Part shown: in pieces, positions 16,117 through 33,002 of the stretch
Position numbering within the stretch: the first letter of the stretch is position 1
How the letters are laid out: each line of letters starts with the position of its first letter
Assembly (NCBI GenBank): GCA_029266495.1
Contig: JAQSWS010000059.1
Location: 1 to 33,002 of the forward strand
Reading direction: 5' to 3'
From: Rariglobus sp.
GTDB taxonomy: Bacteria > Verrucomicrobiota > Verrucomicrobiia > Opitutales > Opitutaceae
Length of the DNA: 33,002 bases
Made by a program: the position numbers and the translations under genes
Notes under the pieces: generated by a model
What the model was told of the DNA's origin: nothing
Databases searched by the model: none
Seen by the model: only the letters and a program-made list of their open reading frames with translations

Positions 16117-18327
16117 TCAGAAGGCTCGTCGGAGGTGCCAGACCGTGCTTTCAAAATCGCGTTCGAGCTTCACGGGCAGGCCGACATGGTGAAGGAAGTC
16201 GCCGCGCCATTCGCCGGAGGGGCCATGACAGCTGCGATAGAGGGCCGCCGGGTCCAAACCGCGCAAGCGCAGGCGCCCATCAAACCAGTTGGGTGACGCA
16301 AGGATGGTCACATGTGTCACCAGCGCTTCGGTGGCATCGGGTAAAACGAGCATCCAGGCGGCGGCGTCCTCGGTGAACGGATTGGCGAGCCGATGCAGAT
16401 CACCGTGGCGAAGCAGGTGCCGGGTGGTTTTGGCCAGACGGGTCAGGGCGATGGCCTCGGCGTGATCGGCTTCGTCGAGGCTCGTGAGATCGAGTTCGAA
16501 GCCGAAGACTCCGGCGAGGGCGACGTGACCGCGGGTGCGCATCGAAGGGCTGCGGTGCATCTGGTGGTTGGGCACGGCGGAAACGTGGGCGCCCATGGTG
16601 CACGGCGGATAAATCAATGACGTGCCGTGCTGGATGCGGAGGCGGGCGATGGCATCGGAGTTGTCGCTGCACCAGATTTGCGGCGTGTAGAATAACATGC
16701 CCGGGTCGTAACGGCCTCCTCCTCCTGAGCAGCCTTCGATCAGGAGATCCGGAAATCGCTGGAGGATTCGTTCGAGAAGGGCGTAGACGCCGAGCAGGTG
16801 GCGATGGGCGGTTTCGCCCTGGCGTTCCGCGGGAAGGACAGCCGACGCGACTTCGGTGAGATGGCGGTTCATGTCCCACTTGAGGTAGCGGATCGGGGCG
16901 GAGGAAAGCACGGCTTCCATCTGGCGGTAGACAGTGTCGACGACTTCGGCCCGGGAGAAATCGAGCACCAGTTGAAAGCGGCTTTCAGTGCGCGGCCGGC
17001 CCGGCAGGTGAAGACACCAATCCGGATGTTCAGTGTGGAGACGGCTGCGAACGGAGACCATTTCAGGTTCAAACCATAGCCCGAACATGAGTCCCTGTTC
17101 GCCGATGCGGCGGGCGAGGCCGTCGAGGCCGGAGGGTAGCTTAGAAAGATTTACGATCCAGTCTCCCAAGGAGGTTTCAGGTCCGTTGCGCTCGCCGAAC
17201 CACCCATCGTCGAGAACGAAAAGCTCGCAGCCCAGGCCGGCGGCCGCGGTGGCGATGGCAACGAGTTTGTCCTCGGTGAACTTAAAATAAGTTCCCTCCC
17301 AGTTGTTGATCAGAACAGGGCGCTCGCGGTCACGCCAGAGGCCGCGGACGAGGCGTTCTCGATAGAGGCGATGGTAGGTGCCTGACAGTCCGCCCAAGCC
17401 GGAACGGGAATGGACGAGGATGGCTTCGGGGGTCTGAAAGGCTTCGCCGGTTTCCAGGCGCCAGGCGAAGCCTTCGGGGTGAAGGCCGGTGAGCGCGCGC
17501 GAACGATGGTATTGGTCAACATCCACTCCTCCCAGATGGTTTCCACTATATACCAAGCTGAAGCCATAGGCCTCGCCGTGTTCCTCACCGGTTCCCGGAG
17601 TGACGAGCGCAAAGAACGGGTGGTGTTGATGTCCACTGGCTCCTCGTCGGCTGCCGACCCATTGCTCGCCTGAGTGAAGGGGCTGGCGTTCGAGCCAGCG
17701 TTCACGGGCCCAGGAGCCGGGCAGATGAATCATCTCGAACGGCCGGGCGGCGAAGTCGATGGCAGCACTCAGGGCACGGCGCAAGGTGAGGGGGCGGGGA
17801 CCGGTGTTGGTGATGCGCGCGGAACGGGCGATCGCATTGCGCCCGGCGAAAACGGTGTAGCTGAGCGTGACGATCAGGCCGCTGGGTTCGTCACGCAGGT
17901 CAACTTCCAGGGTTTCGGCCTCGTCATCGGATTCCACGTAGGTGGCAGGCAGGCCGGATAACGAGGGTTTCCCGCGGAAAAGGCGGTGGCCTGCATAGGC
18001 CAGACGGAGACCACGGGTGCCGTCGGCATGCTCGGCGTCGATGGCGGGAGATCCGAAATCGCCGGTGTTGGCAGTTGGATATTCCGTCGGCAGGATATCG
18101 AGTGGAACGGGCTCTCCGTTTTCATGGCGCACGACCGTGCTGAAGGCGCGTCGGGGAATGTTGAGCAGAGATGCCATGCCTTGGTCCGGTGCAACCGGGG
18201 CGCCCCAGTGCAGATGACAGAGCGTGCCTTGCGGATGCACGCCCATGACATAGCTCGATCCCGGACTTTGTAGAAAAAAGAGCGGGGGTTCTCCAATGAC
18301 GTGGATGAGGGAATCGTTGGCGGGCAT
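16117..18327 (-). CDS. GH36 alpha-galactosidase, 736 residues
   Basis: This is a full-length bacterial GH36 enzyme. The N-terminal beta-supersandwich (about 1-330) includes the conserved WVGSRRGASGHQHHPFFALV region. The TIM barrel (about 335-660) shows LINNWEGTYFKF (339-350), FVLDDGWFGERNG (370-382), GLWFEPEMV, YLKWDMNR with nucleophile D485, GCSGGGGRYDPGM and WCSDNSDAI with acid/base D555. A small C-terminal beta domain ends the protein. It has no signal peptide, so it cleaves alpha-galactosides inside the cell after import. ATG 18327 overlaps the stop of the fucosidase gene (TGATG). An in-frame Met five codons upstream is less likely. Placement after a GPH transporter and GH29 indicates a fucose- and galactose-containing oligosaccharide. 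Confidence 0.95.
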   Translation of the reverse strand: MPANDSLIHVIGEPPLFFLQSPGSSYVMGVHPQGTLCHLHWGAPVAPDQGMASLLNIPRRAFSTVVRHENGEPVPLDILPTEYPTANTGDFGSPAIDAEHADGTRGLRLAYAGHRLFRGKPSLSGLPATYVESDDEAETLEVDLRDEPSGLIVTLSYTVFAGRNAIARSARITNTGPRPLTLRRALSAAIDFAARPFEMIHLPGSWARERWLERQPLHSGEQWVGSRRGASGHQHHPFFALVTPGTGEEHGEAYGFSLVYSGNHLGGVDVDQYHRSRALTGLHPEGFAWRLETGEAFQTPEAILVHSRSGLGGLSGTYHRLYRERLVRGLWRDRERPVLINNWEGTYFKFTEDKLVAIATAAAGLGCELFVLDDGWFGERNGPETSLGDWIVNLSKLPSGLDGLARRIGEQGLMFGLWFEPEMVSVRSRLHTEHPDWCLHLPGRPRTESRFQLVLDFSRAEVVDTVYRQMEAVLSSAPIRYLKWDMNRHLTEVASAVLPAERQGETAHRHLLGVYALLERILQRFPDLLIEGCSGGGGRYDPGMLFYTPQIWCSDNSDAIARLRIQHGTSLIYPPCTMGAHVSAVPNHQMHRSPSMRTRGHVALAGVFGFELDLTSLDEADHAEAIALTRLAKTTRHLLRHGDLHRLANPFTEDAAAWMLVLPDATEALVTHVTILASPNWFDGRLRLRGLDPAALYRSCHGPSGEWRGDFLHHVGLPVKLERDFESTVWHLRRAF

Positions 18328-19529
18328 CAGCCGGGAATCCAAAAAGAGGTTTGGGCGCGCGTGGTGGCGGGCTGGCCTTCGACCTCGAGGACGAAGGTGG
18401 TGCAGATCGGGTCGGGAAGCGACGCGGGCAAATCGTGAAGAGTGACGAGGTCGCCTTGCTGGTCGAAACGCACGGGGGCGCTGCCATCGAGGCGGAATGC
18501 GCGGAGCACGCGGTTGGCGATATCGGAGACGCGGAGGCGGGGGCCGGTGCCGTTGATGACGTGGAGGTAGATGCGGTCGCCCTTGGTGGTGATGCGTCCC
18601 CAGTTGTTCCAGGTGAAGGGCGAGCGCCCGGAGTTTTCCAGGAACTCGCGGTTGCGGCGCAACCAGTCGCCGGACTCGCGGAGGATGCGGACGGATTCCT
18701 CGGGGATGGTGCCGTCGGGCTTGGGACCGACGTTGAGGAGTAGGTTGCCGGCGGAGCAGGAGGTCTCGAGGAGCATGCGGACGACCTGGCGCGGGGTTTT
18801 CCAGTTGGTGTCGCCGGCGTGGTAGCCCCAGTTTTCGTTGAGGGTCATGCAGGCTTCCCAGTCGTGGCCGGGAGCGGCGGGCTTGATCGCCTGCTCGCAG
18901 CTGTGAAAATCGTGCGGGTCGCCGTTGCGGTCGTTGATGAGGATGTGCGGCTGGAGCTGCTTGATGCGGGTGTTGATGACGGTGCCGTCGGTGGGCGAGG
19001 GGATGCAGCCGTCATACCAGAGGAGGTCGATCTTGCCGTAGCGGGTCATGAGCTCCTCGAGTTGCGCGTGGTAGAATTTCACGAAGCGCTGGCGGGCGGC
19101 CTCGTCGGGCCAGCGGTCGGGCCAGTCACGGCGGTGCGCGCCCGGGTAGTCGGGGTGGAACCAGTCGGCGACGGAGTAGTAGAGGCCGACCTTGAGACCG
19201 GCGGCGCGGAAGGCGGCGACGTAGTCGCGGACGAGGTCGCGTTTCGGACCGAGGGCGGTGGCCTTGAAATCGGTGGTATCGGTGTCCCAGAGGCAGAAAC
19301 CGTCGTGGTGGCGCGTGGTGAGAACGGCGTAGCCCATGCCGGCGTCCTTGGCGAGGCGGGCCCATTCGCGCGGGTCGTAGCGCCCGGCGGTGAAGGGGAC
19401 GACACAGTCGCGGATGTAGTCCTCTTTGGAATGCAACTCGCGGTTGGCGACCCATTCGCCGCGGCCGGCGACGGAGTAGGCGCCCCAGTGAATGAACAGG
19501 CCGTAGCGGGCTTGATTGAACCAGGTCAT
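18327..19529 (-). CDS. GH29 alpha-L-fucosidase, intracellular, 400 residues
   Basis: The family hallmarks are clear. WFNQARYGLFIHWGAYSVAG lies at the N-terminus, YAVLTTRHHDGFCLWDTDTT at 68-87, GLKVGLYYSVADWFHPDY at 111-128, IDLLWYDG with the likely nucleophile D173, and LNENWGYH and LLLNVGPKPDGTIPEE further on. A small C-terminal beta domain follows. No signal peptide is present, so it acts in the cytoplasm, releasing L-fucose (or possibly a related sugar) from imported oligosaccharides. ATG 19529 overlaps the transporter's stop (ATGA), indicating translational coupling. The longer frame upstream is out of register with the transporter gene and has arginine-rich nonsense, so it is not used. 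Confidence 0.95.
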   Translation of the reverse strand: MTWFNQARYGLFIHWGAYSVAGRGEWVANRELHSKEDYIRDCVVPFTAGRYDPREWARLAKDAGMGYAVLTTRHHDGFCLWDTDTTDFKATALGPKRDLVRDYVAAFRAAGLKVGLYYSVADWFHPDYPGAHRRDWPDRWPDEAARQRFVKFYHAQLEELMTRYGKIDLLWYDGCIPSPTDGTVINTRIKQLQPHILINDRNGDPHDFHSCEQAIKPAAPGHDWEACMTLNENWGYHAGDTNWKTPRQVVRMLLETSCSAGNLLLNVGPKPDGTIPEESVRILRESGDWLRRNREFLENSGRSPFTWNNWGRITTKGDRIYLHVINGTGPRLRVSDIANRVLRAFRLDGSAPVRFDQQGDLVTLHDLPASLPDPICTTFVLEVEGQPATTRAQTSFWIPG

Positions 19530-20968
19530 GAAGAGGTGATGGCGGGGATGGGGGTGAAAGAGGGGCCGGATGACGTTGCGGCTTCGGCGAGCTTCCGTCG
19601 GCGCCAGTTGAAATACACTTTTACGAAGAGGGCGGCGGCGACGAGCTGGCAGGTGGCGGACCAGAGGTAGGCGTAGGTGTAGTTGTTCACCCAGTCGAAG
19701 AACATCCCGACGAAGGGCGTGAGGACAAAGGTGATGATCGAGTGGACGATGTTGTTGGCGGAGGAGAACTGGCCGATTTTTTCGCGGGGGAATACCTCGA
19801 CCATGACGACGCCGACGCAGATGCCGTAGACGAACTGGGAGAGGGTGATGAGGCCCATGCAGACGAGCAGGCTGGTGGCGTCGCGGAGGAAAAAGAACGA
19901 GACGACGTTGGACGCGGCCCACATCAGAAGCCCGACCGCGACGAGCCGCACGGGCTGGAAGCGGTCGAGCAGGGCGCCGAGCGGGTAGCCCAGGAGCACG
20001 ATGCCGAGGGTGGGCCAAGCCTGCATCTTGCCGATGGTGTCGAGATCCAGGGCGATGGTCTCGCTCCAGTGGAAGAGGCGGTAGAGGTTGGGCAGATTGC
20101 CGAGCTGATAGGCGATGAAGGCGCCGAAAATCCACCAGTAGTAGCCGTGGCTGAAGCAGTCGGTGACGTAGCTTTTAAAGGGGGCGAAGAACGTTTTTTT
20201 TGGGCGCGGTTCGGGCGGCGGGTAGTCGCCCTCCTTCACCACGAAAAGGCTGACCATGTAGGCGGCGAGGCAGAGGCCGGCGAGGAGGCCGTAGACCCAC
20301 TTCATGTGGTTCTGGGCGTGGCCGAAGATCCAGTAGTTCCAGACAAAGGTCTGGATGGTCGTGACGATTTTCACCGTGGCGTTGAAGCGGCCGAGCACGG
20401 ATTTGGGCACGACGTCCCAGTAGAAATACTGGAAGACGCCCATGAGGACTGCGTTGAAAATGCCGAAGACGATGCCGCAGGCGGCGATGGCGACGACGGC
20501 GCCGTTGATCGAGCCGGGAGGGAAAAGTTCGGCGAACCAGGCGTGTCCCATGAGCCAGTTCCAGGCCTCCGGAGCCCAGGGGATGAGTCCGAGAAAAAGG
20601 GCGGCGGGGGGCGCGGCGATGAGGAGGAAAGGGCGGCGGCGGCCCCAGGAGGTGCGGGTGCGGTCGGACCAGGTGCTGACGACGGGATTTATCCAGATCG
20701 TGAATACGGTGGCGACGGTGCCGGTGAGGGCGATCTGGGTGTTGGTCGCGCCGTGGCTGCGCATGAGCAGGCCGGTGAGCGCGGGTTTCACCGCTTCCAG
20801 CAGCATGAGGAAAAAGTCGTTCCACATGAGCCAGAAGAAGAGCGTGATCAGGCCGGCCTTGGTGTAGCGGAGGGTGCCGATGGTCCAGAAGCGCCGGCCG
20901 GTGGCGGGGTCGGTGATGACGTCGGGGGCTTGCGGCGCGGAGAGCGGCGGGGAGGAGGAGAGAGACAT
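19526..20968 (-). CDS. GPH-family (MFS) sugar:cation symporter, 480 residues
   Basis: A polytopic inner-membrane protein with about twelve hydrophobic segments. Features of the glycoside-pentoside-hexuronide family include the early segment LFFWLMWNDFFLMLLEAVKP and the first cytoplasmic loop with PVVSTWSDRTRTSWGRRRPF. That loop's D-R-T-x-x-x-x-G-R-R-R-P-F motif is a family signature. Later loops include GRFNATVKIV and MVEVFPREKIGQFSSANN. It probably imports oligosaccharides with a cation (H+ or Na+). ATG 20968 gives a normal-length polar N-terminus. A possible GTG/TTG start upstream adds only MPARPTAARP-like sequence. It is the first gene of the operon with GH29, GH36 and two oxidoreductases, with overlaps downstream. 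Confidence 0.9.
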   Translation of the reverse strand: MSLSSSPPLSAPQAPDVITDPATGRRFWTIGTLRYTKAGLITLFFWLMWNDFFLMLLEAVKPALTGLLMRSHGATNTQIALTGTVATVFTIWINPVVSTWSDRTRTSWGRRRPFLLIAAPPAALFLGLIPWAPEAWNWLMGHAWFAELFPPGSINGAVVAIAACGIVFGIFNAVLMGVFQYFYWDVVPKSVLGRFNATVKIVTTIQTFVWNYWIFGHAQNHMKWVYGLLAGLCLAAYMVSLFVVKEGDYPPPEPRPKKTFFAPFKSYVTDCFSHGYYWWIFGAFIAYQLGNLPNLYRLFHWSETIALDLDTIGKMQAWPTLGIVLLGYPLGALLDRFQPVRLVAVGLLMWAASNVVSFFFLRDATSLLVCMGLITLSQFVYGICVGVVMVEVFPREKIGQFSSANNIVHSIITFVLTPFVGMFFDWVNNYTYAYLWSATCQLVAAALFVKVYFNWRRRKLAEAATSSGPSFTPIPAITSS

Positions 20969-21234: not shown

Positions 21235-23982
21235 CTACTGCTTCTCGAACTTGATGGCGTCGGCGACGACGTAGCCGCTGGTGCCGGTGGTGGAGACGAG
21301 AACGTTGCCCGCGGTGCCGGCGTTGAAGGCATAGGAGCCGAGCAGAACCCATTCGCCGCCGTTCACCTTTTGGTTCACCTGGGTGGAGGCGGTGCCGCCG
21401 GCGTGGGTGATGGTGACGGGGACGTTGTTGGCGCGGCTGGTGGAGGCGGTCCAGCGGAGGTAGACCTCGTAGGTGCCGGCGGTGGCGAGGGTGGGCGAGA
21501 AGCGGACGCTCTTCGTGCCTTTGCCGGCGTCGCCGTCATGGAGGTAATTGGTGCCGTGGTAGCCGGGATCGGCGGCGGAGCTGGTCCAGGCGCCGGTGAT
21601 GGTGACGCCGGTGGCGGCGGAGTTGTCCACGATGAGGGCGGTGGCGGGCGGGGCGACGTAGACGGTGTTGAGCGCGGCCTGGCTGGCGCCGGAGAGGGTG
21701 AGGTTCTGCCAGGCGGTGCCGACGTTGGAGAGTTCCGGTTTGAAAATCGCGGTCTGGTAGGCGCCGGAACCGAGGGTGAAGCCGAAGTCGAGATCGCGGG
21801 CGGCGTTGCGGTCGAAGAGCACGCCCTTGGCGCCCTCGGTGCCGCCGACCACGCCGGCGCCGAGACCGATGGAGAAGTAGCCTTCGCCGTTGAGGCCGTG
21901 GCCGTTGTTGTTGGTCAGGCTGGGCCGGATGGAATCGATGGAGTTGCCGCGGAAGGCGACGTCCCAGAAGCCGTTGCCGAGACGGGTCTCGCCGGCGATA
22001 GCGGCGACGGCGTGGGCGATGATCTGCGAGGGGTAGACGTGATCCGTATTCAACATTTCGTTACCCTGGACGAGGACGTTGCGGAAGAGGCTGAAACGGC
22101 CGTGGCCGTCGTTGAGGCGCTGATCGGAGCGGATATAGATGTCGCCGGAGTTGATGAAGGTGTTGTCGATGACGGCGACGTCGGCGTTGGAGGAGCTGTA
22201 GAACCAGACGGTGCGCGGGCAGTTTTGGAAGAGGTTGCCGGCGATCAGCCATTGCGAGCCGAGCCAGGTGACGGCGTAGGTCGAGGCGGTGGTGGGGGTG
22301 ATGCTCCAGGCGGCGTCGAGCGTGGCGGTGGTGGCGGTGTTGCTGACGATTTTGCGCACCTGGCCTTCGCCCGGGCCGTCGAGGATGAAGACGTGGGCGC
22401 CGGCGGCGGGAAGCTCGTTGGCGGCCCAGGCACGGGCGGAGTCGGTGAAGGTGGTCGCGGTCGCGCCGGTGACGTGCCCGCCGCCGAGTTTGGGCGGGGC
22501 CTGGTCGAGGATGGTCTCACCGTCGTTGGCCTGCGGGATGGGGCCGGAGCCGATTTTTTCAAAGATGTTGTCGATGAAGGCGACCTGGCTGCTGCGGTCG
22601 AGGGCCCAGCCTCCGTATTCGTAGGGCGCGCTGTCGTCGGTCGCGACGGTGCGGGCGAAGGTGTTGTCGTCGATCTGAAGATTGCGGCCGGCCCCGGCCC
22701 AGAGGCGTCCATCGGACCACTGAACGTAGCAGTTTTTCATCAGGAGGTTTTCGGTGCCGGCGGAGACGAAGACGTATTTGCCGGTGGTGGCGCGGGCGAT
22801 GATCTCGGAGTCCTTGACGAGGGTGCCGACTTTCACGCCGCCGACGTCGAGGCCGGCGCCGCCGGTGGTATCGATGCGGGCGCGGACGAAGACGACGGGG
22901 CCGCCGTCGGGGCTGCCGCTGTTGAAGCGGATCTGGCCGCCGGTGAGGGCGAGGTCGATGAAGCCCATGTGGTAGACGGTGCCGAGGGTGGAGTGGACGG
23001 TCTTGGGGTTGATGGTGCCGACGAGGGTGGAGGCGTTCATGCCGGCGCCCTTGAGCACGACCTTCTTTCCGGGACGAAGCACGGTGGCGCCGAGATTATA
23101 GGTGCCGGCGGGGAAGTAGACCTGGCCGCCGCCGGCGGCGGAGGCGGCGTCGCAGGCGGCCTGGATGGCGGCGGAGTCGTCGGCCACTCCATCGCCGACG
23201 GCGTGAAGGGCGAGGCGGGTGTCGGTCTTGACGTTGTAGACGTTGCTCGTGGCGAAGGCGTATTCGCCGGCCCAGGGCACGCCGAGGTTGAGGGGGTCGG
23301 CGGGCGTGGCGACGCAGGCGAGGACGGGACCGGTGGTTTCGCCGTAGGTGCCGCCGTGGCCGTTGTTCACGATGAGCCGGTAGGTCTGGCCGGCGGCGAG
23401 GGATGCGGGCGCGGTGAGCGTGAGGAAGTTGGCGCGGTCGAGATTGGTGACGGTGGCGGCGGTCCGCGCGAGGGTGGCGGTGTTTTCGAACCAGACCTGC
23501 GGAGTGGCGCCGGGGAGATCGAGGCTCCAGCCGTAGAGGCGGAAGGCGCGGCCGGGGTTTATCTTCGAGCCCGCGAGATCGAGCGTCTGCCAGGCTTCGG
23601 CGCGGTTCACCCAGACGTGGGCGCTGGTGAAGGCACCGCATTTGACGAAGACGGCGTAGAGACCCTTCGGCAAGGTGGCGGGGACGCGGGCGTGGAGGAG
23701 ATTTTCGGAAGCGGAGACGACCGTGGCGGCCTGAGTCTCGGCGTTCGGGGTGTCGGTGCTTCCGGTGATCTGATCGAACCAGACCTGGGGCTGGTTGGCG
23801 CCTTGGACGAAATAGGCGCCGTGCAAGGTGAGAGTGTCGCCCGGGAGGGCGGCCTTGGTGTGGGTGAAGATGAGCGGGGTCTGGGCTTGGGTGGCGGCGC
23901 CAAGGGCGAGGGAGCCAAGGATCAGGAGGGCGTGGCGGGCGGACGCGAGGACGCGCCGGCGCGAGCGGGAGCTCGGATTCAT
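21235..23982 (-). CDS. Secreted right-handed beta-helix protein (pectate-lyase superfamily), 915 residues
   Basis: A basic, hydrophobic signal peptide (residues 1-33, ending ATQAQ) is followed by two IPT/Ig-like beta domains (about 34-230, with FTHTKAALPGDTLTLHGAYF and INPGRAFRLYGWSLDLPGAT). The Pectate_lyase_3-type beta-helix (about 255-760) begins with the classic GDGVADDSAAIQAACDAASA, then GGGQVYFPAGTYNLG. A C-terminal golvesin/xanthan-lyase-type carbohydrate-binding domain (about 785-915) runs from VDNSAATGVTITGAWTSSAA to SGYVVADAIKFEK. The protein probably cuts or trims a polysaccharide outside the cytoplasm. The beta-helix could be lyase, glycosidase or epimerase, so substrate is not assigned. 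A shared upstream element lies at 24088-24100. It is followed by two terminators. Confidence 0.85.
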   Translation of the reverse strand: MNPSSRSRRRVLASARHALLILGSLALGAATQAQTPLIFTHTKAALPGDTLTLHGAYFVQGANQPQVWFDQITGSTDTPNAETQAATVVSASENLLHARVPATLPKGLYAVFVKCGAFTSAHVWVNRAEAWQTLDLAGSKINPGRAFRLYGWSLDLPGATPQVWFENTATLARTAATVTNLDRANFLTLTAPASLAAGQTYRLIVNNGHGGTYGETTGPVLACVATPADPLNLGVPWAGEYAFATSNVYNVKTDTRLALHAVGDGVADDSAAIQAACDAASAAGGGQVYFPAGTYNLGATVLRPGKKVVLKGAGMNASTLVGTINPKTVHSTLGTVYHMGFIDLALTGGQIRFNSGSPDGGPVVFVRARIDTTGGAGLDVGGVKVGTLVKDSEIIARATTGKYVFVSAGTENLLMKNCYVQWSDGRLWAGAGRNLQIDDNTFARTVATDDSAPYEYGGWALDRSSQVAFIDNIFEKIGSGPIPQANDGETILDQAPPKLGGGHVTGATATTFTDSARAWAANELPAAGAHVFILDGPGEGQVRKIVSNTATTATLDAAWSITPTTASTYAVTWLGSQWLIAGNLFQNCPRTVWFYSSSNADVAVIDNTFINSGDIYIRSDQRLNDGHGRFSLFRNVLVQGNEMLNTDHVYPSQIIAHAVAAIAGETRLGNGFWDVAFRGNSIDSIRPSLTNNNGHGLNGEGYFSIGLGAGVVGGTEGAKGVLFDRNAARDLDFGFTLGSGAYQTAIFKPELSNVGTAWQNLTLSGASQAALNTVYVAPPATALIVDNSAATGVTITGAWTSSAADPGYHGTNYLHDGDAGKGTKSVRFSPTLATAGTYEVYLRWTASTSRANNVPVTITHAGGTASTQVNQKVNGGEWVLLGSYAFNAGTAGNVLVSTTGTSGYVVADAIKFEKQ

Positions 23983-24140: not shown

Positions 24141-26261
24141 TCAGGGCGCGGTGACGCGGACTCGCAGGAAACGGGCGGGAGCGGGCGTGATTGCGTCGGT
24201 GTAAGTGGCGCGTTCCCAGGCGGAGTCGATGGAGGCGATGGCGGGCTCGGTGGTGAGCGGACTCCAGGGGCCGGTGAGCGTGCTGTTCGCCTCCGGTGTG
24301 TAGAGCACACCGGGATTGGCGGAGGTTTTGAGGCGGACGAGGGTGAGCGTAAGACGTCCGTCCGGGAGGCGTTGAATCAAGGGAAGGCCGCTGGTGCCGC
24401 CGGGGGAGAGGATCCGCGCGGCCGGGCGGGAAAGATCTCCCTGTTCGGGTGCAAGGTTGAAGGCGAATTTGAGGAGGTTGGTCACGCCGTCGCCGGCGGG
24501 ATTGCGGAGGTCCTCGGCGCCATCGGTGGCGAGGCCGTGGCGGGCTCGCCAGCTTTGCAAGGCGGTGGGCGGGGGAGGACCGTCGGTGGCGATGGTCATG
24601 ACGCCGAGGTATCCGTAGGCGGCGCCGGCGTCCTTCGTGACAGCGAGGACAAGTTCGCCGGCGGAGTTCGGCGCGAGGTCTTCGAGGGTAGCGAGCTGGG
24701 AGACGTTGTCGGAGGCGTTGAGCGAGGCGGTGAGGCCGTTGATGGAGTAGCGGGTGATGCGGTTGCCGGCGGTGGAGCGCGAGGCGAAGAAGGTGAAGTC
24801 GTAGGTCTGGCCGGGGTTGAGCCCGCTGATGCGCAGCTGTGCGGCGTGATAGGCGGCGGAGATATAGAGCGAGTCGATCAACGCGGTGCCCGGGTAAAGC
24901 GACGAAGCGGTGAGGCCGTTGGTGTTGGGGCTGTCGAAGCGCTGCGTGATCTCGACGCGGACGCCGACGGGCGTGCCGGCGGAGCTGACGGCATTGTCGA
25001 CGACGCTGCCGGAGGCGCCGGGGAGCGGGTTTGTGAGGTTGTTCCAGCCGAGGTCGGTCGTCGGAAAGCCGGCGGCACCGGAACCGAGGTCGAAGCGGCA
25101 GAGGAAAGGGGCGGAGTGGGGAACGGTGACGGTGAGGCTCGCTCGCGCGCCGTGGTATTTATCGTCGGTGACCTGACAGGTGATGATGTGTTTGCCGGTG
25201 GCGAGGTTCGCGACGTCGAGAGTGGCGCCGGTGCCGAGTTCGCCGGCGAGGTGGCTGGACCAGCGGATGTTTTGGTTGGAGAGCGAGAGGCCGGCTTTGT
25301 CGCGGGCGGTGGCGGCGAGGCGGAGCGAGGTCCCGGGGGAGAGAATCGTGCCGGGGACGGGAGAGGTGATGGCGAGATCGGGCTTTTGGTGGCCGAGCAG
25401 CCAGTTCCACGTCTTGGCGTTCGTGTAGGTGCGTTGCCAGCTGTTGTGGAGATCGCCGGCGAAGACGGTGAGCTGGGGCTGCGCATCGGCGGCGGGATCG
25501 AGACCGACGCCCCAGACCCAGGCGCCGGCGGGGGTGAAGCGGCCGGTGTAGTTGGTGGTGGTGTTGGCAACGCCGGGAAAGTTTGCCATGCAGGTCGGCA
25601 AAGTGAGGCCGGAGCGGGCGGCGGCGACCAGATCCACGGCGGTGTCGGGATGGTTGCTCCAGTCGCCCCGGGCGGTGAGTATCCAGAACGGGACTACCTT
25701 GGAAATCCGGGTGGCGGCGGAGGCGGATACGGTGCCGCGGTAGGCGCAGACGAGAAAGGCGGCGGCCTCGTCGGCGTTGGCGTCCTTGTTCATGAAGTCG
25801 GTGACGCCCTCGCTGCCGGAGCTGAGGCCGGTGAGGTAGATGCGGCGCGGATCGATGCGGTAGCGCGTCCTGGCGTGGTCGATGAAGGCGCGGATCGGGC
25901 CGGCCGCCCACCAGGTGGTGTATTGCGGGCAGAGCACGATCGCGCCCTGCTGGTCGAGAAGCGCGCGGATGGGGTCGGCGGGGTTGTTGAGGTTGCGGGC
26001 GACCTCATTGACGAGGACCTTGTTGAGCGCGGTGCCGGCGGTGCCGTCGCCGATTTCGCCCAGGCCGTGGAAATAAAAGACGACGGGAAAGGACTGGCCG
26101 GGATTGGCCGCGTAGGCTGAAGGGAGGAACTCCCAGTAGCCGCGCGGCGAGCCGTTGGTGCCGATCGGAACGGCGGTCCAGGTCGGAGCGGCCTTGAGCG
26201 CGGCGGCGCTGAGAAGCAAGAGGGCAAGGCGGAAGAGCAGGGGCAGACGGGGTGGCTGCAT
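24141..26261 (-). CDS. Secreted CE1-like alpha/beta-hydrolase esterase, multidomain, 706 residues
   Basis: A signal peptide (1-24, ending LKAA) precedes an esterase domain (about 25-290) of the PHB-depolymerase/feruloyl-acetylxylan esterase type. VVFYFHGLGEIGDG (60-73) is the oxyanion-side motif, IYLTGLSSGSEG (141-152) holds nucleophile S147, and FAGDLHNSWQ near 267 carries the likely catalytic His. An Ig-like segment (about 297-385) and two further beta domains (about 390-560 and 590-706) follow. The late LQSWRARHGL...NPAGDGVTNLLKFAF stretch is typical of C-terminal regions in verrucomicrobial secreted proteins. It probably removes acyl or feruloyl groups from a polysaccharide. It lies 91 bases after the 1402-residue gene. 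Confidence 0.8.
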   Translation of the reverse strand: MQPPRLPLLFRLALLLLSAAALKAAPTWTAVPIGTNGSPRGYWEFLPSAYAANPGQSFPVVFYFHGLGEIGDGTAGTALNKVLVNEVARNLNNPADPIRALLDQQGAIVLCPQYTTWWAAGPIRAFIDHARTRYRIDPRRIYLTGLSSGSEGVTDFMNKDANADEAAAFLVCAYRGTVSASAATRISKVVPFWILTARGDWSNHPDTAVDLVAAARSGLTLPTCMANFPGVANTTTNYTGRFTPAGAWVWGVGLDPAADAQPQLTVFAGDLHNSWQRTYTNAKTWNWLLGHQKPDLAITSPVPGTILSPGTSLRLAATARDKAGLSLSNQNIRWSSHLAGELGTGATLDVANLATGKHIITCQVTDDKYHGARASLTVTVPHSAPFLCRFDLGSGAAGFPTTDLGWNNLTNPLPGASGSVVDNAVSSAGTPVGVRVEITQRFDSPNTNGLTASSLYPGTALIDSLYISAAYHAAQLRISGLNPGQTYDFTFFASRSTAGNRITRYSINGLTASLNASDNVSQLATLEDLAPNSAGELVLAVTKDAGAAYGYLGVMTIATDGPPPPTALQSWRARHGLATDGAEDLRNPAGDGVTNLLKFAFNLAPEQGDLSRPAARILSPGGTSGLPLIQRLPDGRLTLTLVRLKTSANPGVLYTPEANSTLTGPWSPLTTEPAIASIDSAWERATYTDAITPAPARFLRVRVTAP

Positions 26262-26352: not shown

Positions 26353-29300
26353 TCAGGAGAGCGCGAGATTCACCGGGCCGGAGATATCGAAGGTTTGGTG
26401 ACGGCCCTGGTGGCGGAGGTGAACCTGGCCCGCGCCTTGGGCGACGAGACGCGCGCCTTGGGCGGCGACGGTGAGGGAGGCTTCCGGGCCGGTGCTCTCG
26501 AGCGACCAGCCGCCGTGTTCGAGGCGGCCGGGGCCGATGACGCAGAGCACGGTTTCCGCAGGGGAGCGCAGCAGCGCGCCCGAGCCACCGGCGAAGGTGT
26601 GATCGGCGTCGGCGGTGGAGACGGCGGAGCGGCTAAACCAGACGCGATGATCAGCGCCGGTGCCGGCGCCGCGAACGCGGGCGCCGATGATGCGGTCGCC
26701 GTCGCGCAGCGGTTCGGCGGACACGGGACCGGTGGAGTCGAGCGGATGGAGCACGGCCAGGTAGTGGCGCGCGCCGGGGGCTGTGACCTGGAGATGCTGC
26801 ATCGCGAACCAGTCGGCGGGAGTGCCGCGGTATTCGTGAATGGGAAGATTTTCCACGCGGGCGGCGGCGAAAACTTGCCCGGGAAAGAGGACCTGCAGAT
26901 CGGTGCCGAAGCGGCCGGGGAAAACGTAACCGCTCGCAGGGTCGCCGGCGGGGACGCCGCCGACGACCTGGAGGTGCCAATGCGAGGGGATGTTCGCGGG
27001 AAGGTGGATGGCGTCGTGCACGATGAGCGTGCGGCCGCCGAGCCAGGCGAGGGAGCGGACGACGCCGGGCGCGGACTGGTTCCAGCGACGGTAACATTCG
27101 CCGATGAGGGTGTGGCTGGCGTTGTCGCTCAGGAAGGCCGGCTCGCCGGGCGCGACCGCGCCGGCGTGCGTGCCCTGGGTGAACTGAATGGCGGGCGTGG
27201 CGAAGATGCGTTCGAGCCGGCCGGGCATGAGCGGCATATGCACGTCGTGAAAGGAGAGCGTGCTGTGGCGCCAGGTCTCGCCGGCCTCGCCGCCGTCGAA
27301 GATGAGGGGCTTGCCGTCGGCGAAGAAGATAAGGCTGCCTTCGGTGCGGTGATAACGGTAGCCGCCGGGGCCTTGTTTGAGGAGGACGTAGCCCTCGCGG
27401 TCGGTGTTGAAGCCCTGGCGGAGCACGGCGCCGAAGCCTTCGAGGCGGCGACTGGCGAGCGTGATCGCCGGCGCTTCGGGGATGTCGGGCTCTTCGATGA
27501 CGGTGAAGAAGAGCGGGAGGTTGCCGAAGGTGGCGCTGGAGTAGATGTCGTGAAAGAGCTGCTCGCCCTCCTGCTCGACGGGCCGGGCGTAGCGGGTGAC
27601 GAGGCGGGCGCCGTCGGCATTGGCCACGAAGTAGGAATTGAGTAGTTCTTCGGCGAATACGGGATCCGACGAACGAAAGAGCTTTCCGATGGTGGCGTAG
27701 TGCTCGGGGAGCCAGCGGCCGATGGTGGCGTGGTCGCCGACAGGGGCGATCTTGCGGACCTTTTCCACGCGGTCGAAGAGATCGGAACCCTGGCCGTCGC
27801 GCATGGTGGCGTAGGCGACGGGGTGGGGCGGCGTGAGGAGCAGGATGCCCCAGCGCAGGAAGTCCCTGAGGAGCGGAATCTCGTCGAGGGAAAGGCGGCC
27901 GTGCGCGACGAGATGATACACGAGGTTCATCCGGCACTTGGCGTTTTGCAGATAATAGCAGGCGGGGTTTTCGTGCCATTTTCCGCTGCCGGGCGTGCAA
28001 TAGGAGACGAGGGCGCGCTTCGTGAGCTCGATGACGTGGCGCTGGAATTTTTCCGCATCCGGATGGCCGTCGAACACGATGCCGATGGCGCCCACGATGT
28101 CGGCGCGGTCGGCCTCGAAGTTGGCGTTACGCCCGCCAAACTGCCAGTTCATGAAGTCGGTCTCCATGAACATGTGTCCCATCAGAATAAAGAAGGCGCG
28201 GACGGAGCGCTCCTCCTCGGGGCTGAAGACGCCGCTGGCGGCGATGAGGTCGTATTCCTCGACCCACTCGGTGATCGGGCGGCCGAGGACGGGCGAATAC
28301 ATGTCGCTCCAGTCGCGGCCGAGCAGGGTCATGCGGGAGCGGATCTCGGCGATGCAGAGGAAGTCGATGCGCTTGCGCCAGGCGATGAGCGGGTCGCCGT
28401 CGAGGGCGAACGCAAGGCCCAGGCCGGGCCCGCGGACCTTGGGCTTTTCACCGCGGATTTTTTGCCAGAGACGGGCGAAGCGCGGGTGCCGGGTTTTGGC
28501 GCGGAGCGGAATCAGTTGCCCGCGCGTGGCGACGACGTGGGGCCGGGCGTCGGTGTCGGCGACGTCGAAATGCCAGTCCTTGAAATCCTGCAGGCGCGGC
28601 GAGGAGTGCGCGTGCTGCACGGCGGACATTTCCTTCCAGGGGCCGTCGTTGGCCTCGAAGGCGCCGGCGTAGAGGCCCCAGCGGCGCTCGCCGTCGAAGA
28701 AGCCGAAGCGAAAGAACACGTCGCCATCGGCGGTGGTGTGCGCGGTGATCTGCGAGATCGAGGAACCGAGCATCTCGGGGTAGGGCCAGTCGAGCTCGTG
28801 GTTCGGCGAGCCGTCGGCGTCAACCGGACCCTGGGAGATGCGGGCGAAGGCGCGGTCGATCCACTCGCCGCGGCGCAGACTCATGACGGCGAGATAGTCG
28901 CGTTCGGCCAGGCTGTCGGGCGTGACGGCGGCGGCGAAGAACTGCGGCGGCACCCACCAGGGAACGGATTCGGGAAGGGCGGCGACGAGGGCGTCCTTCG
29001 CCTCGAGCGGATACCAGTGCCGCCCGCCGTCGGGCGATTCGCGGGTCCAGTGGCGGAAGGTTCGGCCACCGGAAAACTCCGCGAGGGAGAACTCGAATGC
29101 GGCACCTTCGAGCGCCGGTGCGATCTCGTGAACCTCAAGCACGGGCTCGCCGTCGAGAGCGGTGAGATGGACGAGGTAGCATGATCCATTGTTCAGCGTG
29201 TAAGCGACGCGGAGTTCGATGAGAATGGGGCCGAGCTGGAGCAGTTCGGTGGAGCGGTGCGTGATGGTGATGCCCGGGGGAAGCACGAATCGTCCGCGAC

Positions 29301-30561
29301 CACGCCAGCGCTGGTCCGCGCCGCGCACGGCGAGCAGGGGAGGCGCGTCCGTGGCAGCGGTGGGGCCGGGGATACGAAATTGAGCGGTGCCGGTGTCGAG
29401 CTGCCAGACTTCGGGCGATTCTTTGATCAGGCGCAGCCGGGTGTCGGTCGCGGGGGGCTCCGAGTCGGTGGCGTAGAATGCCACGCTGCGCCGGGAGCGC
29501 ATGGGGAGGGCGGCCATGAGCGCGACCTCATGTCCGACGATTTGGTGGGGTTCGGGTCGCCCGGGCTCGATCTCGACGCGAAGCGCCTGCGTGGCCGGAT
29601 CAAAACCGGCCGGCAGGGGAAGACGAAGGGGCTGGAGCCGGAAGTCGTAGTAAAACGGATTGTGCAGTCGGTGTTCGGCAAGGATGCCGGCGGAGGAGTG
29701 GGGGCTTTGCCAGGTTGCGGGCGGGGCGCTTTGCCATTCGGTGACGGTGAGGTTGCCGAGATCGGTTTCGCTATCGGCGACGATGGCGAGATCGCGGGCG
29801 ATAAACCGAGTGGGAATCGCGTGGACGGCGGGATCGAGTGTTACGGCGAGGAACTCGTGTCGGCCGGCGGGAACGGAAGGAAATTGGAACTCACCGCGGG
29901 CACTGGTGGTGGTGGTGAGTTTTCCGAGGGGCCCGACGACGGGTGCGTAGTCAGGCGCAGCCCCGAGATAGGTGCGCGGATCGGGATGTTTTACTTCGAC
30001 TGCGAGGCCGAGGGTGACGAGTGCGTGTGCGACAGGCGTATCGTCGGGAAAGATCAATGCGCCGCGGAGCTGTCCGCTGGCGGGAACCGGAGCGGTCGCA
30101 GGGGGAGGAGCTGGAGGTTCAGTGAGTTCAGGCGGAAGCGGGCGACGACAGCGGCGGAAGCTGGCGCGGAGCGCGTCGTATTGCGTGGGTGTTTCGGCGA
30201 GACGAAGCGCCGCACCGAAGCGGTCGTTGGCGGCGGCGTGGTATCGGGCGAGATATTCTTCGAGGGTGAAGCCGGCGCGGGCTTCGGCGGAGAGGCGATA
30301 GTGGGAATCGCGTGCGAGATTGTGGGTGTCTTCGGCGAGACGAAGGGCGACCGCGAAGGATTCGGCGCGCAGGAGGCCGGCGTAACTGGCGAGGAGGGCG
30401 GTGGCTTCGTGCAGTTCGGCGAGCGCGGCAAGGGCGTCGTGGGTGCCCAGGACGGCAGCGGGCGTGCACGTGACGGGTTCGGCCAGGAGAGCGAAGCCGA
30501 TGCGGCGGGCGGTTTCGAGGCGGTGATTGGCGAGGGCGGTGGCGAGAGTTTCCGGCGACAT
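26353..30561 (-). CDS. Giant heparinase II/III-like (polysaccharide lyase-type) protein, 1402 residues
   Basis: Domains, by composition and motif: a helical N-terminal region (1-150); a carboxypeptidase-regulatory-like Ig domain (about 165-290, AHALVTLGLAVEV to SARGEFQFPSVPAGRHEFLA); a beta-rich region (about 300-620); an alpha/alpha-toroid (about 690-1010, including WSDMYSPVLGRPITEWVEEY, DFMNWQFGGRNANFEADRAD, CYYLQNAKCRMNL); and a heparinase II/III-type beta-sandwich (about 1040-1400, including YRYHRTEGSLIFFADGKPLI, ASHTLIGECYRRWNQSAPGV, GGRTLIVHDAIHLP). The toroid-plus-sandwich layout is that of uronic-acid polysaccharide lyases, but length and N-terminus are unlike standard members, so the call is by fold. 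There is no signal peptide at this start. It lies 9 bases after the SGNH gene in an operon. Confidence 0.65.
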   Translation of the reverse strand: MSPETLATALANHRLETARRIGFALLAEPVTCTPAAVLGTHDALAALAELHEATALLASYAGLLRAESFAVALRLAEDTHNLARDSHYRLSAEARAGFTLEEYLARYHAAANDRFGAALRLAETPTQYDALRASFRRCRRPLPPELTEPPAPPPATAPVPASGQLRGALIFPDDTPVAHALVTLGLAVEVKHPDPRTYLGAAPDYAPVVGPLGKLTTTTSARGEFQFPSVPAGRHEFLAVTLDPAVHAIPTRFIARDLAIVADSETDLGNLTVTEWQSAPPATWQSPHSSAGILAEHRLHNPFYYDFRLQPLRLPLPAGFDPATQALRVEIEPGRPEPHQIVGHEVALMAALPMRSRRSVAFYATDSEPPATDTRLRLIKESPEVWQLDTGTAQFRIPGPTAATDAPPLLAVRGADQRWRGRGRFVLPPGITITHRSTELLQLGPILIELRVAYTLNNGSCYLVHLTALDGEPVLEVHEIAPALEGAAFEFSLAEFSGGRTFRHWTRESPDGGRHWYPLEAKDALVAALPESVPWWVPPQFFAAAVTPDSLAERDYLAVMSLRRGEWIDRAFARISQGPVDADGSPNHELDWPYPEMLGSSISQITAHTTADGDVFFRFGFFDGERRWGLYAGAFEANDGPWKEMSAVQHAHSSPRLQDFKDWHFDVADTDARPHVVATRGQLIPLRAKTRHPRFARLWQKIRGEKPKVRGPGLGLAFALDGDPLIAWRKRIDFLCIAEIRSRMTLLGRDWSDMYSPVLGRPITEWVEEYDLIAASGVFSPEEERSVRAFFILMGHMFMETDFMNWQFGGRNANFEADRADIVGAIGIVFDGHPDAEKFQRHVIELTKRALVSYCTPGSGKWHENPACYYLQNAKCRMNLVYHLVAHGRLSLDEIPLLRDFLRWGILLLTPPHPVAYATMRDGQGSDLFDRVEKVRKIAPVGDHATIGRWLPEHYATIGKLFRSSDPVFAEELLNSYFVANADGARLVTRYARPVEQEGEQLFHDIYSSATFGNLPLFFTVIEEPDIPEAPAITLASRRLEGFGAVLRQGFNTDREGYVLLKQGPGGYRYHRTEGSLIFFADGKPLIFDGGEAGETWRHSTLSFHDVHMPLMPGRLERIFATPAIQFTQGTHAGAVAPGEPAFLSDNASHTLIGECYRRWNQSAPGVVRSLAWLGGRTLIVHDAIHLPANIPSHWHLQVVGGVPAGDPASGYVFPGRFGTDLQVLFPGQVFAAARVENLPIHEYRGTPADWFAMQHLQVTAPGARHYLAVLHPLDSTGPVSAEPLRDGDRIIGARVRGAGTGADHRVWFSRSAVSTADADHTFAGGSGALLRSPAETVLCVIGPGRLEHGGWSLESTGPEASLTVAAQGARLVAQGAGQVHLRHQGRHQTFDISGPVNLALS

Positions 30562-30570
30562 GGGGAAGGC

Positions 30571-31782
30571 TTAGCGACCGGCTGAACAGAGACTCTCGAT
30601 GCGCAGTTCGGCGTTGGGTGCGGCGTCAGTGAAGACGGGCTCGATCCTCAATGTATGTCCGCCGTCGGCCAGGTTTTTGGCGAGCAACGTCCAGGCGAAG
30701 AGATTGCCCGCACCGGCTTCGGGCGAAGCAAAACGGGATGTATCGATGTTCCAGAGATGCGGATCGGGGGCCTTGGACGCGGGCTGGGGGATGGGACGAT
30801 CATCGATCCAGACGCGGAAAGGCGGAGTGGTGGGGGATCGCTCGCCGATGAGGGCAATGAAGGACCCGCGAAAAGTGGTCTCGAGCGGAGCGGCGCCGGC
30901 GGTCGCGCGGGCGACATCGCCCATCCAGCGACTGGAGAGTCCGTCGAACCACATCGAGGTGCGGCAGGTGTGTGTGCGGGTCCAGCCGGCGGGAAGAGGT
31001 GTATCCACAAGCACACGACGTTCGCGGAAGGGGTAGCGGTCTTCGGTCAGGAATTTTGCGGGGATGGGCGAGGGGGAGGGGGACACGGCGGCCTGGAGAT
31101 AGGCATCACGCACGGCTTCGAAGAAGAGGCCGTAGCCGGCGTCATCGGGGTGGGTGCGGTCGCGGCCGATGGGATAGAGTTGATCAGCCGTGTAGCGTCC
31201 GGCGGCGACGGCGGTGCGCGTGGTGCGGAGGGTATCGGCGGTGATCAGGCCGTAGGCGTCGGCCAGCTTTTGGTGGGCGGCGTAGCGGGCGGGGATTTTT
31301 TCCGCCGGATCGACGACCAGGCCGTGCACACTCATCAGCACGGGGATGACGGCGGCTTCGGAAGAGCGGAGCTCACGAAGGATGCGTTCGTAAGTGGCTA
31401 GGGAATGGGCGTCGGCGGTGCCGAGGTCGTCGTTGACCGTGAAGTCGAGGAAGACGAGGTCGGGTTGCTTCGAGAGCACGTCGCGATCGAGGCGGAAGAG
31501 GGCGAGGGCGGAGCCGGTGCCGCCGATGGCGGCGTCGTGGAAATGCAGCGGGGTGCGCGGATACTTTTCGCGCAGCCATCGCATCATGCGTCCGCGATAA
31601 CTGGTGGTGTTGGGATCGCTGGCGTTGGCGCCCCACGTGAGCGAACCGCCCAGAAAGACGATGGAGAGCGGTTCGTGTTTTTCGGCACGGGTGGCGAAGT
31701 TGGCGACGGTGGCGGCGGGCATGGGCGAGGCGACCAGCAGGAAGGCAAGGGTGGCGAGGAGGCGCAAGGGAGCGGAATGCAT
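30571..31782 (-). CDS. Secreted SGNH hydrolase, 403 residues
   Basis: The signal peptide is MHSAPLRLLATLAFLLVASP, with cleavage near PAAT. The SGNH core has SIVFLGGSLTWGANASDP with nucleophile S47 (GGS in place of GDS), the block II AIGGTGSALA, FLDFTVNDDLGTAD with N117, and IGRDRTHPDDAGYG with D208 and H211. The C-terminal half (about 270-403) is a beta-sandwich. ATG 31782 is used because the longer frame upstream is arginine- and serine-rich nonsense. The gene begins 7 bases after the preceding stop and ends 9 bases before the 1402-residue lyase-like gene, so it belongs to that operon. It is the third SGNH esterase in the window. Confidence 0.88.
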   Translation of the reverse strand: MHSAPLRLLATLAFLLVASPMPAATVANFATRAEKHEPLSIVFLGGSLTWGANASDPNTTSYRGRMMRWLREKYPRTPLHFHDAAIGGTGSALALFRLDRDVLSKQPDLVFLDFTVNDDLGTADAHSLATYERILRELRSSEAAVIPVLMSVHGLVVDPAEKIPARYAAHQKLADAYGLITADTLRTTRTAVAAGRYTADQLYPIGRDRTHPDDAGYGLFFEAVRDAYLQAAVSPSPSPIPAKFLTEDRYPFRERRVLVDTPLPAGWTRTHTCRTSMWFDGLSSRWMGDVARATAGAAPLETTFRGSFIALIGERSPTTPPFRVWIDDRPIPQPASKAPDPHLWNIDTSRFASPEAGAGNLFAWTLLAKNLADGGHTLRIEPVFTDAAPNAELRIESLCSAGR

Positions 31783-31789
31783 GGACGGG

Positions 31790-32533
31790 TCAAGAACGCG
31801 CTTTTTCGGGCGGGGCCGGTGCTTTTTCGCTGATGATGCGGACGATGGCGGGAGGCGGGGTCGGATCGAGGCCCAGTTCGGGGTCGGGTGCGTAGTTGAA
31901 GATGAAGCCGTAGCTGTGCAGTTCGGGTCGGGCGAGGCGCTCCTTGCGAAAGGCGAGGCTCCAGCCGCCGGTGTTTGCCACGGCGACTTGCACGAGGATG
32001 CCACCCGTGCCTTGGGGAACGATCATCGATGAGGCGGGGGCGGCTTCGTGGCGGGTTTCGTTGAGCGCGACCATCGCGGGCATATCGGAGAGATTTATGA
32101 TGCGCAGGGCGCCCGCCGGGTGTTTTTTTGAATCATCGGTCAGGACCTTGGCGGCGAGTTTTTCGTTGGGAAGAGGCGCGACCACGATGATCAGGGCGAC
32201 TTGTTCGGCGGGGAGCGGTATCTCGGCGGCAATATCCTTCACCGGTTTGGTGCCAGCGGGGGCGTCGGGAGGAACCGGCAGCAGGCGGTAGAGGACGAGT
32301 TTGTCGCCCGGGGGGCGCGAGTAACGCTTCGAGGGGGAGCGTGTGATCATGAGTGGCACGGGTTCGGTGCCCGGGCGGGGATCGAAGCGAAGATCGGTGG
32401 CGGAGCCGACGGTGGTCATGATGCGGAACGTGGTGGATTCATCCACTGCCGGGGCGACGGGGCCGGTTTGGGCGGCGAGCGTCGCCAGTGCGGCGAAAAA
32501 GGCGAACGTGAGGGATGAGCAAAAACGGATCAT
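31790..32533 (-). CDS. Secreted hypothetical protein coupled to Verru_Chthon protein A, 247 residues
   Basis: Starting at ATG 32533, which overlaps the stop of the preceding gene (ATGA), the protein has a signal peptide (MIRFCSSLTFAFFAALATLA, with cleavage before or after AQ). The mature beta-rich domain contains a PGDKLVLYRLLPVP strand and a Pro-rich tail. The longer frame upstream reads arginine-rich nonsense and is discarded. No domain is recognised. Translational coupling to the Verru_Chthon cassette protein suggests a shared envelope or pilus-like assembly, but this is inference. Confidence 0.75.
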   Translation of the reverse strand: MIRFCSSLTFAFFAALATLAAQTGPVAPAVDESTTFRIMTTVGSATDLRFDPRPGTEPVPLMITRSPSKRYSRPPGDKLVLYRLLPVPPDAPAGTKPVKDIAAEIPLPAEQVALIIVVAPLPNEKLAAKVLTDDSKKHPAGALRIINLSDMPAMVALNETRHEAAPASSMIVPQGTGGILVQVAVANTGGWSLAFRKERLARPELHSYGFIFNYAPDPELGLDPTPPPAIVRIISEKAPAPPEKARS

Positions 32534-33002
32534 ATTTCGGACGGAGTTAGCCAGCGGAAGGAGACGATCTTGAGGCGGCGACCGAAGGTGATGTTGGCGC
32601 CGCTGGCGGTGTCGGCCGGTTGGTTGATGGACGGCGCCACGTAGTCGGGCAGGCGTTGAACCACGGCTTCGCACCAGGCACGGCCCTCAATTTCCTGGGT
32701 GACGGGGTTGATGGTTTCGCCGTAGGTGCGGATCACAAACGTGTCGGAGCGAGCGGTGAGTTGGGGGCCGAGCGATGAAACGACATCGGCTTGGGTGAGA
32801 TATTTGGGGGAGAAGCTGTAGTTGAATCGAAAGGAGTCACGGTTCGTGCCGACTTCACTGGTGGGTCCTCCGATGTAGTGTTCGGAGTCCCAGGATGCAT
32901 AGAGCAAAGACGAAGTGACCATCGTGGCTCCCGCGGCCGAGTTCCATGCGGTGAAGGGATTCGCCTGGGCTGCGGCGGGCTCCATGGTATCGATCGCATT
33001 TT
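32530..33002 (-). CDS. Verru_Chthon cassette protein A, C-terminal part (5' end outside window)
   Basis: The minus-strand frame is open to the right edge, reading NAIDTMEP at the boundary, so the visible 157 codons are the C-terminus. The segment DVVSSLGPQLTARSDTFVIR, then TYGE, then EIEGRAWCEAVVQRLPDYV, is what I recognise from Verru_Chthon cassette protein A, a large verrucomicrobial protein that comes last in a cassette of prepilin-like proteins. The rest of that cassette (B, C and D) should lie to the right of the window. Function is undetermined. It is thought to involve secretion or surface assembly. Here it heads an operon of polysaccharide-acting enzymes. Confidence 0.75.
   Translation of the reverse strand, partial: NAIDTMEPAAAQANPFTAWNSAAGATMVTSSLLYASWDSEHYIGGPTSEVGTNRDSFRFNYSFSPKYLTQADVVSSLGPQLTARSDTFVIRTYGETINPVTQEIEGRAWCEAVVQRLPDYVAPSINQPADTASGANITFGRRLKIVSFRWLTPSEI

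Follow-up and report, generated by a model that had tools for sequence, protein, structure and literature searches.

The window analysed here, a stretch of 33,002 nucleotides from Rariglobus sp. (Opitutaceae, Verrucomicrobiota), extends as far as the end of contig C26; the genome comprises 4.9 Mb, divided among 172 contigs. Its edge probably holds the first genes of a polysaccharide-degradation operon. The features, with the evidence for each, are as follows:

32530..33002, minus strand: protein A, C-terminal 156 residues of a giant GspK-like pseudopilin (C26/C21 end overlap, open frame, GspK fold of a paralogue)
31790..32533, minus strand: protein U, 247 aa, a tandem beta-sandwich with a signal-like N-terminal helix (ATGA overlap, family behind A, model, PDB comparison)
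30571..31782, minus strand: SGNH/GDSL esterase, 403 aa, 7 bases after U (PF13472, 2e-17)
26353..30561, minus strand: 1402-aa protein, family unknown, starting 9 bases beyond the esterase gene (open frame)
24141..26261, minus strand: PHB-depolymerase-like esterase, 706 aa, 91 bases after the 1402-aa gene (NF050058, 6.5e-10, under its cutoff)
21235..23982, minus strand: pectate-lyase/rhamnogalacturonase-fold protein with Golvesin_C, 158 bases after the 706-aa esterase gene (PF12708, 4e-12; PF25275, 1.5e-36)
21164-21143 and 21092-21070, minus strand: terminator-like hairpins after the pectate-lyase-fold gene (consensus matches only)
18327..20135, minus strand: alpha-L-fucosidase, perhaps of a later unit (PF01120, 1.8e-82)
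16117..18342, minus strand: GH36 alpha-galactosidase (PF02065, 1.5e-146)

The gene order described in the initial annotation was confirmed. The stop codon of protein A (32530-32532) and the ATG of protein U (32531-32533) overlap as ATGA on the minus strand, and gaps of 7 and 9 bases lead on to the esterase and the 1402-aa gene. A and U were described there as fused; they are separate genes that overlap by 4 bases. The A-U pair does head the close-packed genes of a glycan-degradation cluster, which comprises the GDSL and PHB-depolymerase-like esterases, the pectate-lyase-fold protein, the alpha-L-fucosidase and the GH36 enzyme. The term lyase-like for the 1402-aa gene could not be kept, as this protein had no Pfam match at E 0.01, no NCBIfam support and no credible PDB sequence match. 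By eye alone, parts of its C-terminal half resemble heparinase II/III-type lyases. A consensus scan of the minus strand revealed no terminator-like sites between A and the 1402-aa gene, the whole scan being near chance (10 sites versus a shuffled mean of 7.2), and promoter matches in the window were at chance level.

Protein A continues beyond the window. The final 38 bases of C26 recur, reverse-complemented, at one end of contig C21, and the frame of protein A is open across this overlap. At full length, protein A comprises 1202 aa across C26 and C21, with a 1058-aa stretch on C21 and 3 unknown residues that derive from 9 N in that contig. A 378-aa regulator-like gene, with weak MocR/GntR-type helix-turn-helix matches only, lies 153 bases upstream of protein A on C21.

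We compared protein A with known families and structures. Its N-terminus is of the prepilin type. The curated GspK model NF037980 scored it at 22.5 bits against a cutoff of 130 and matched the N-terminus only, a Pfam scan of 18 A members gave nothing above noise, and PDB sequence searches with protein A or protein U returned nothing credible. We modelled a paralogue on contig C165 from 93 aligned A proteins (pLDDT 86.6, pTM 0.89). VIA-align matched this model to GspK of enterotoxigenic E. coli (3ci0_K; Z 11.2, 251/280 aligned, rmsd 3.7) and to XcpX of P. aeruginosa (5vtm_X; Z 10.9, 229/259 aligned, rmsd 3.3), with the next-best match at Z 4.9. Foldseek alone gave no match at E 0.001; 3ci0_K ranked third at E 0.24, among mostly spurious large chains. 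In the model, residues 371-653 fold into a beta-sandwich region, for which only weak sandwich matches were obtained. Across 18 paralogues from the own genome, mean pairwise identity was 0.85 in the helix (14-73), 0.17 in the insertion and 0.40 in the C-terminal part. The accessible text of PMC7541494 describes the absence of Glu5 as characteristic of GspK/PilX. In the A copies with a GFALL motif that lie detached from the pseudopilin operon of this genome, mature residue 5 was Ile in 19 of 20 and Val in one, never Glu. The operon-borne A on contig C27 also has Ile at this position.

The VIA-align fold match, the missing Glu5 and the gene position in relatives indicate that protein A is a GspK-like protein with a large variable beta-sandwich insertion, as predicted from the paralogue's model; it would act in the way a GspK does, and we do not claim strict membership of the curated family. 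Like GspK/XcpX (3ci0 chain K, 5vtm chain X), protein A combines a prepilin N-terminus lacking Glu5 with a GspK core fold, and in the operon of relatives it sits after I and J. Unlike them, it is three to four times longer and carries the insertion and a constant partner, U. It also differs in that nearly all copies here lie apart from H-I-J, in its score under the curated GspK cutoff, and in that an ordinary GspK is present as well. The window's own A is preceded by the regulator-like gene and not by gspI or gspJ, and so does not occupy the gene position expected of GspK.

Protein U lies directly behind A in 21/21 own-genome loci with downstream DNA, the profile having been made from 16 of these and then recovering the other 5. 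The U starts probably fall between a point 25 bases inside A and one about 20 bases beyond it, the start at L074 being less clear. A whole-genome profile search detected no further U except one fragment beside the C100 copy, and the genome holds 21 U in all. Outside the own genome, U accompanied 77 of 84 full-length A proteins (70 full, 7 partial); three of the remaining A were near a contig edge and four had no U match, all in fen or related Opitutia records. One A followed by two tandem U was seen at L171:12517-13993 in genome G041, and L241 also has two U.

The model of U (pLDDT 90.5) consists of two beta sandwiches behind a signal-like helix. Among its best PDB matches was PepT2 (7pmy_A; Z 13.2, rmsd 11.5), and the extracellular domain alone (5a9i) gave Z 11.8 with 176/194 aligned. 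Single U domains matched HGSNAT, cytolysins and AlgF, the last lower than PepT. PilY1 was not among the listed PDB matches of U, and NCBIfam gave no match of note. We rejected the PepT, AlgF, HGSNAT, cytolysin and transthyretin matches as a guide to function and read them as a common sandwich fold.

We then counted A and U across the own genome and the family, with genes called by a home-made codon script that missed some genes and starts. The own genome (G000) has 23 A-like loci, which represent 22 or 23 genes: contig ends truncate three of the loci, and two of the resulting fragments may derive from a single gene. With the best 22 candidates scored per genome, 42 of 120 Opitutaceae genomes had U at E 1e-5 and 78 had none. 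A single U match was found in 35 of the 42, while G000 had 20, G041 at least 18, G117 at least 22 and G035 at least 10, and G005, G050 and G118 had three each. At L077 (G000:C63), A seems to be frameshifted just past the prepilin start (~13657-13767, minus strand), through sequencing error or decay. HWSLVIGH-like stretches occur at several A and U N-termini (L063, L064, L065, L072, L073), as if a short DNA repeat had spread.

Relatives with few copies revealed where A belongs. We examined 20 loci from 18 genomes with one to three U matches, A being off the contig in one. At least 14 of the remaining 19 had A behind a J-like gene, and the typical order was G-G-H-I-J-A-U. By NCBIfam, the genes of one such operon matched GspG, GspH/Verru_Chthon D, GspI-PilV/Verru_Chthon B, Verru_Chthon C and GspK/Verru_Chthon A, all under the specific-family cutoffs. 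In G000, the corresponding set is divided between the end of C93 (G, I and the start of J) and the start of C27 (the rest of J, A and U), where A again follows J; we infer this join, as the two ends have no overlap. A J-like 128-aa frame lies on C118. C142 of the same genome carries an ordinary type II secretion operon, recognised by gene order and sequence, with a 382-aa GspK and a secretin over the Pfam cutoff, and a second secretin locus lies on C110. We assign protein A to a second pseudopilin set, G-G-H-I-J-A-U, beside the ordinary type II secretion operon.

The base subunits did not multiply with the A-U pairs. They were counted with a J profile from 12 genomes and an I profile from 9 genomes. 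One full J and one I were found in each of G041, G117 and G035, versus at least 18, at least 22 and at least 10 U, respectively. G000 had one I and one J (plus the J fragment) versus 21 U. G005 had two J, one I and three U, and G013, G075 and G044 had one of each. In G097, of the same genus, a single U match came with neither a full I nor a full J. Across the four expanded genomes, at least 10 to 22 A-U pairs stand against about one I and one J. In G041, neither A nor U was found in the fetched stretch behind J, where the next gene is unrelated, and an operon-type A lies on a contig other than that of J; since nothing of the pair was found behind J, a tip in this genome would have to act in trans.

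We next asked how the detached copies relate to the operon-borne one. An origin from the ordinary GspK was set aside, because the first 60 residues of detached A are on average 80% (least 73%) identical to the C27 operon copy versus 23% to ordinary GspK. In a FastTree tree of 124 A proteins with a midpoint root (operon labels assumed for L153, L155 and L160; L159 left unlabelled), two groups separated with support 100, one holding 26/27 operon-labelled rows and the other 49/55 detached rows. The detached group included 17/19 rows from other families, and six detached rows fell in the operon group. L080 (G000:C147), L184 (G041) and L139 form a separate A lineage that groups with operon-type A; it lies beside gcvP in G000 and G041 and perhaps has another function. 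About twenty copies of A and U have arisen as a unit of two genes, nearly all of them away from H-I-J and often in polysaccharide-degradation loci.

The pair also occurs beyond the family. A phylum scan with the U profile, in which the best 9 candidates were scored per genome, found U at E 1e-8 in 46 of 288 genomes, and several families had five or more copies. In four genomes of four other families, A lay directly before U in 19/19 fetched loci, and none of these had an I or J match within the fetched 18-20 kb (profiles from Opitutaceae-type operons). Some of these loci lie next to sulfatase genes; at L242, a sulfatase-like gene comes after U and further sulfatase-like genes follow, as read by sequence.

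The initial annotation had proposed that adjacency to CAZyme genes be sought at other loci. Similar placement does recur elsewhere, so that the refuting outcome named there, a lack of any recurrence, did not arise, although not every copy shows it, one of eight named glycan clusters lying near 10 of 18 own loci. Outside the operons, the neighbours that recurred beside A-U were LacI regulators, GH1, GH16, GH94, GH125, sialic-acid-esterase-like, heparinase-like and CBM9 proteins. For some own copies the neighbours are gcvP, corA genes or an AAA_3/VWA/DUF58 cluster. Of the eight named glycan clusters, one or more lay near 34 of the 80 loci in which no H, I or J was called (four or more neighbours each, the C27 operon copy included) versus 0 of 18 operon loci, a comparison that is biased because the eight were picked among families recurring near A and because pseudopilin genes fill the upstream places in operon loci. 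LacI regulators were found at 17 of the same 80 loci and at 0 of 18 operon loci. At L176:15876-17654 (plus strand), a GH1 beta-glucosidase domain is fused to an AraC-type DNA-binding domain in a protein of 592 aa.

Two further comparisons addressed the linkage. Glycosidase/lyase families made up 16 of 94 own neighbours, the window locus being left out, versus 3 of 94 among random own proteins, sampled from 230 (Fisher p 0.003 under one rule). Under this rule a family was counted if it had at least two members or if its single member reached E 7.9e-72 or better, with Polysacc_lyase summed over two lists; the rule was so chosen because the Pfam tallies gave 25 listed families. The least biased test concerned reciprocal-best A pairs from five genomes, which shared a neighbour family in 34 of 56 cases versus 278 of 1858 other cross-genome pairs (p 2e-14, the pairs not being independent).

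Our preferred reading, which we regard as somewhat probable, is that giant GspK-like proteins with their partner U are exchangeable tips on one pseudopilus and are tied to glycan operons. Its anatomy is strong, as the gene order, the pairing, the copy numbers, the GspK fold of the paralogue, the conserved helix and the variable insertion were all found directly; the tip function is our inference, as are the docking, the co-expression and the role given to the variable part. Each A would be made upon induction of its glycan operon, would dock via its nearly invariant helix on the single H-I-J complex and would cap the filament. The cell could then swap tips according to the glycan present, and the variable insertion together with U would select what the tip handles. 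The set may be moved by the type II secretion system of C142 or by the machine of the second secretin locus on C110. Counting against this reading are the own copies away from glycan genes, the weak Foldseek result, the low score with the curated GspK model, the 78 of 120 family genomes without U at E 1e-5, the four Opitutia A without U, and G097 without a full I or J.

Published work on related systems bears on this reading. GspK has been proposed to form the outermost tip and to contact substrates, according to the accessible text of PMC7541494, and a P. aeruginosa xcpX (GspK) transposon mutant still secretes, according to that of PMC6211770. The latter implies that GspK need not be essential and that a tip may tune secretion rather than enable it. 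Together with the multiple tip clusters of Myxococcus xanthus, these observations lead us to read A-U as an exchangeable tip. The secretion device suggested in the initial annotation fits the GspK-like fold of the A paralogue, although not in the form of a Verru_Chthon cassette. As to the task of such a tip, we lean slightly towards operon-specific export of secreted enzymes, itself a tentative proposal, over glycan binding by a surface tip, which appears a little less likely.

In the latter case, which we consider unlikely though not implausible, the filament would not serve mainly for export and A-U would be a glycan-specific adhesin or sensor tip, whose insertion and U bind polysaccharide at the surface and join cell and polymer, in the manner of PilY1 with minor pilins. 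M. xanthus offers a parallel, with three clusters of PilY1 and minor pilins for one major pilin (PMC7541494, accessible text). Here as there, several tip sets would serve one filament and the tip would have a secreted non-pilin partner; whole minor-pilin sets have been copied in M. xanthus, to three (same source), whereas here the tip and its partner alone have been copied, about twenty times and often beside glycan genes. Like PilY1, U would be an additional secreted protein that accompanies a tip pilin, A varies most in its insertion, and the second secretin locus on C110 appears pilus-like by reading of the neighbouring sequence. Against an adhesin or sensor, the best PDB matches of U are extracellular domains of peptide transporters, with AlgF domains lower, and not lectins, and no Pfam family was recognised in A. 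Moreover, U is predicted to be a double beta-sandwich, a fold that seems unlike that of PilY1.

It is also conceivable, but improbable, that A-U is simply a dispersed gene family whose proximity to glycan genes is incidental in genomes rich in such genes, the modules moving or duplicating without functional ties. Consistent with this, not all A-U copies adjoin glycan genes, and the random control of 94 proteins also holds glycan enzymes. Orthologous A proteins nevertheless have neighbour families in common at four times the rate of other pairs (again, pairs that are not independent), and both the excess of glycosidases and lyases among neighbours over random proteins and the biased contrast between detached and operon loci speak against it.

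Protein A had been named in the initial annotation as protein A of a Verru_Chthon cassette, and this identity did not hold. TIGR02600 gave 34.3 bits for the 1058-aa C21 part, versus a cutoff of 332.3, and matched its first 60 residues only. The cutoff was passed by 0 of 21 own-genome hits (best 37 bits, N-terminus only) and by 0 of 7 A genes scanned from other families, and these scores rule out membership of Verru_Chthon A at the curated cutoff. Extension to the right, where Verru_Chthon B, C and D had been expected, showed that A continues to its start on C21, upstream of which lies the regulator-like gene; with U on its downstream side, the window's A has none of the three adjacent to it. 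The 17 own U proteins scanned matched no Verru_Chthon family. The cassette (TIGR02600, TIGR02598, TIGR02599, TIGR02596) resembles the operon of the relatives in having four prepilin-type genes, and H, I, J and A of the single-copy operon weakly match D, B, C and A at their N-termini. It differs in that the operon members score under the curated cutoffs, the nearest being I with 30.9 versus 51.4, and in that A occurs in the window without the other three, accompanied by U. A set loosely similar to the Verru_Chthon cassette is the H-I-J-A pseudopilin operon, of which the genome carries about one copy at another place. That protein A is a true cassette protein A is very improbable; a remote common origin may nonetheless link the two.

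Among the papers listed in searches of open-licence PMC text, none described the A-U system, and a look for mentions of pilins, pili or secretion in the Verrucomicrobia genome papers PMC5615132 and PMC8857213 gave nothing. The closest parallel comes from Verruconatronum alginivorum (Opitutales), whose alginate operon contains a PulG-like pseudopilin gene that was seemingly upregulated on alginate, with one replicate per treatment; the genome has 67 homologues of it, and one more pseudopilin was over-expressed elsewhere (PMC13274419, accessible text). Both cases place a pseudopilin gene inside a glycan operon. The V. alginivorum protein, being PulG-like, is of the major type and not a GspK-like tip, and the accessible text of PMC13274419 describes no U partner. 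Those data, as far as that text gives them, support glycan-linked pseudopilins in this group, but for a major-type subunit. Near A-U, we observed 11 GspG-like short prepilins with a CASNLRQ-type motif in 10 loci, for example L176:10924-11640 (minus strand), L177:181-960 (plus strand) and L157:3768-4496 (minus strand). They are perhaps akin to the PulG-like expansion described in PMC13274419 and might provide the filament with alternative subunits.

GspK is a well-known protein, and what is new is its giant, multiplied, U-paired and glycan-linked form. The present analysis gives a structural identity to two unnamed families, the giant GspK-like A and its partner U. To our knowledge, how type II pseudopili choose their substrates and what GspK does at the tip are open questions. 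About twenty paralogous tips that share one docking partner, many of them beside different enzyme sets, would make tip specificity directly testable. It is possible, though we would not yet count on it, that many Verrucomicrobiota have one pseudopilus with about twenty giant GspK-like caps, each with a secreted partner, each made along with one glycan operon and mounted in trans on a single H-I-J complex. Bacteroidota have many SusC/SusD pairs. If our reading is true, A-U would be a substrate-specific secretion or capture device heading glycan operons, functionally comparable to those pairs, and would suggest what Verrucomicrobiota use at the head of their glycan operons.
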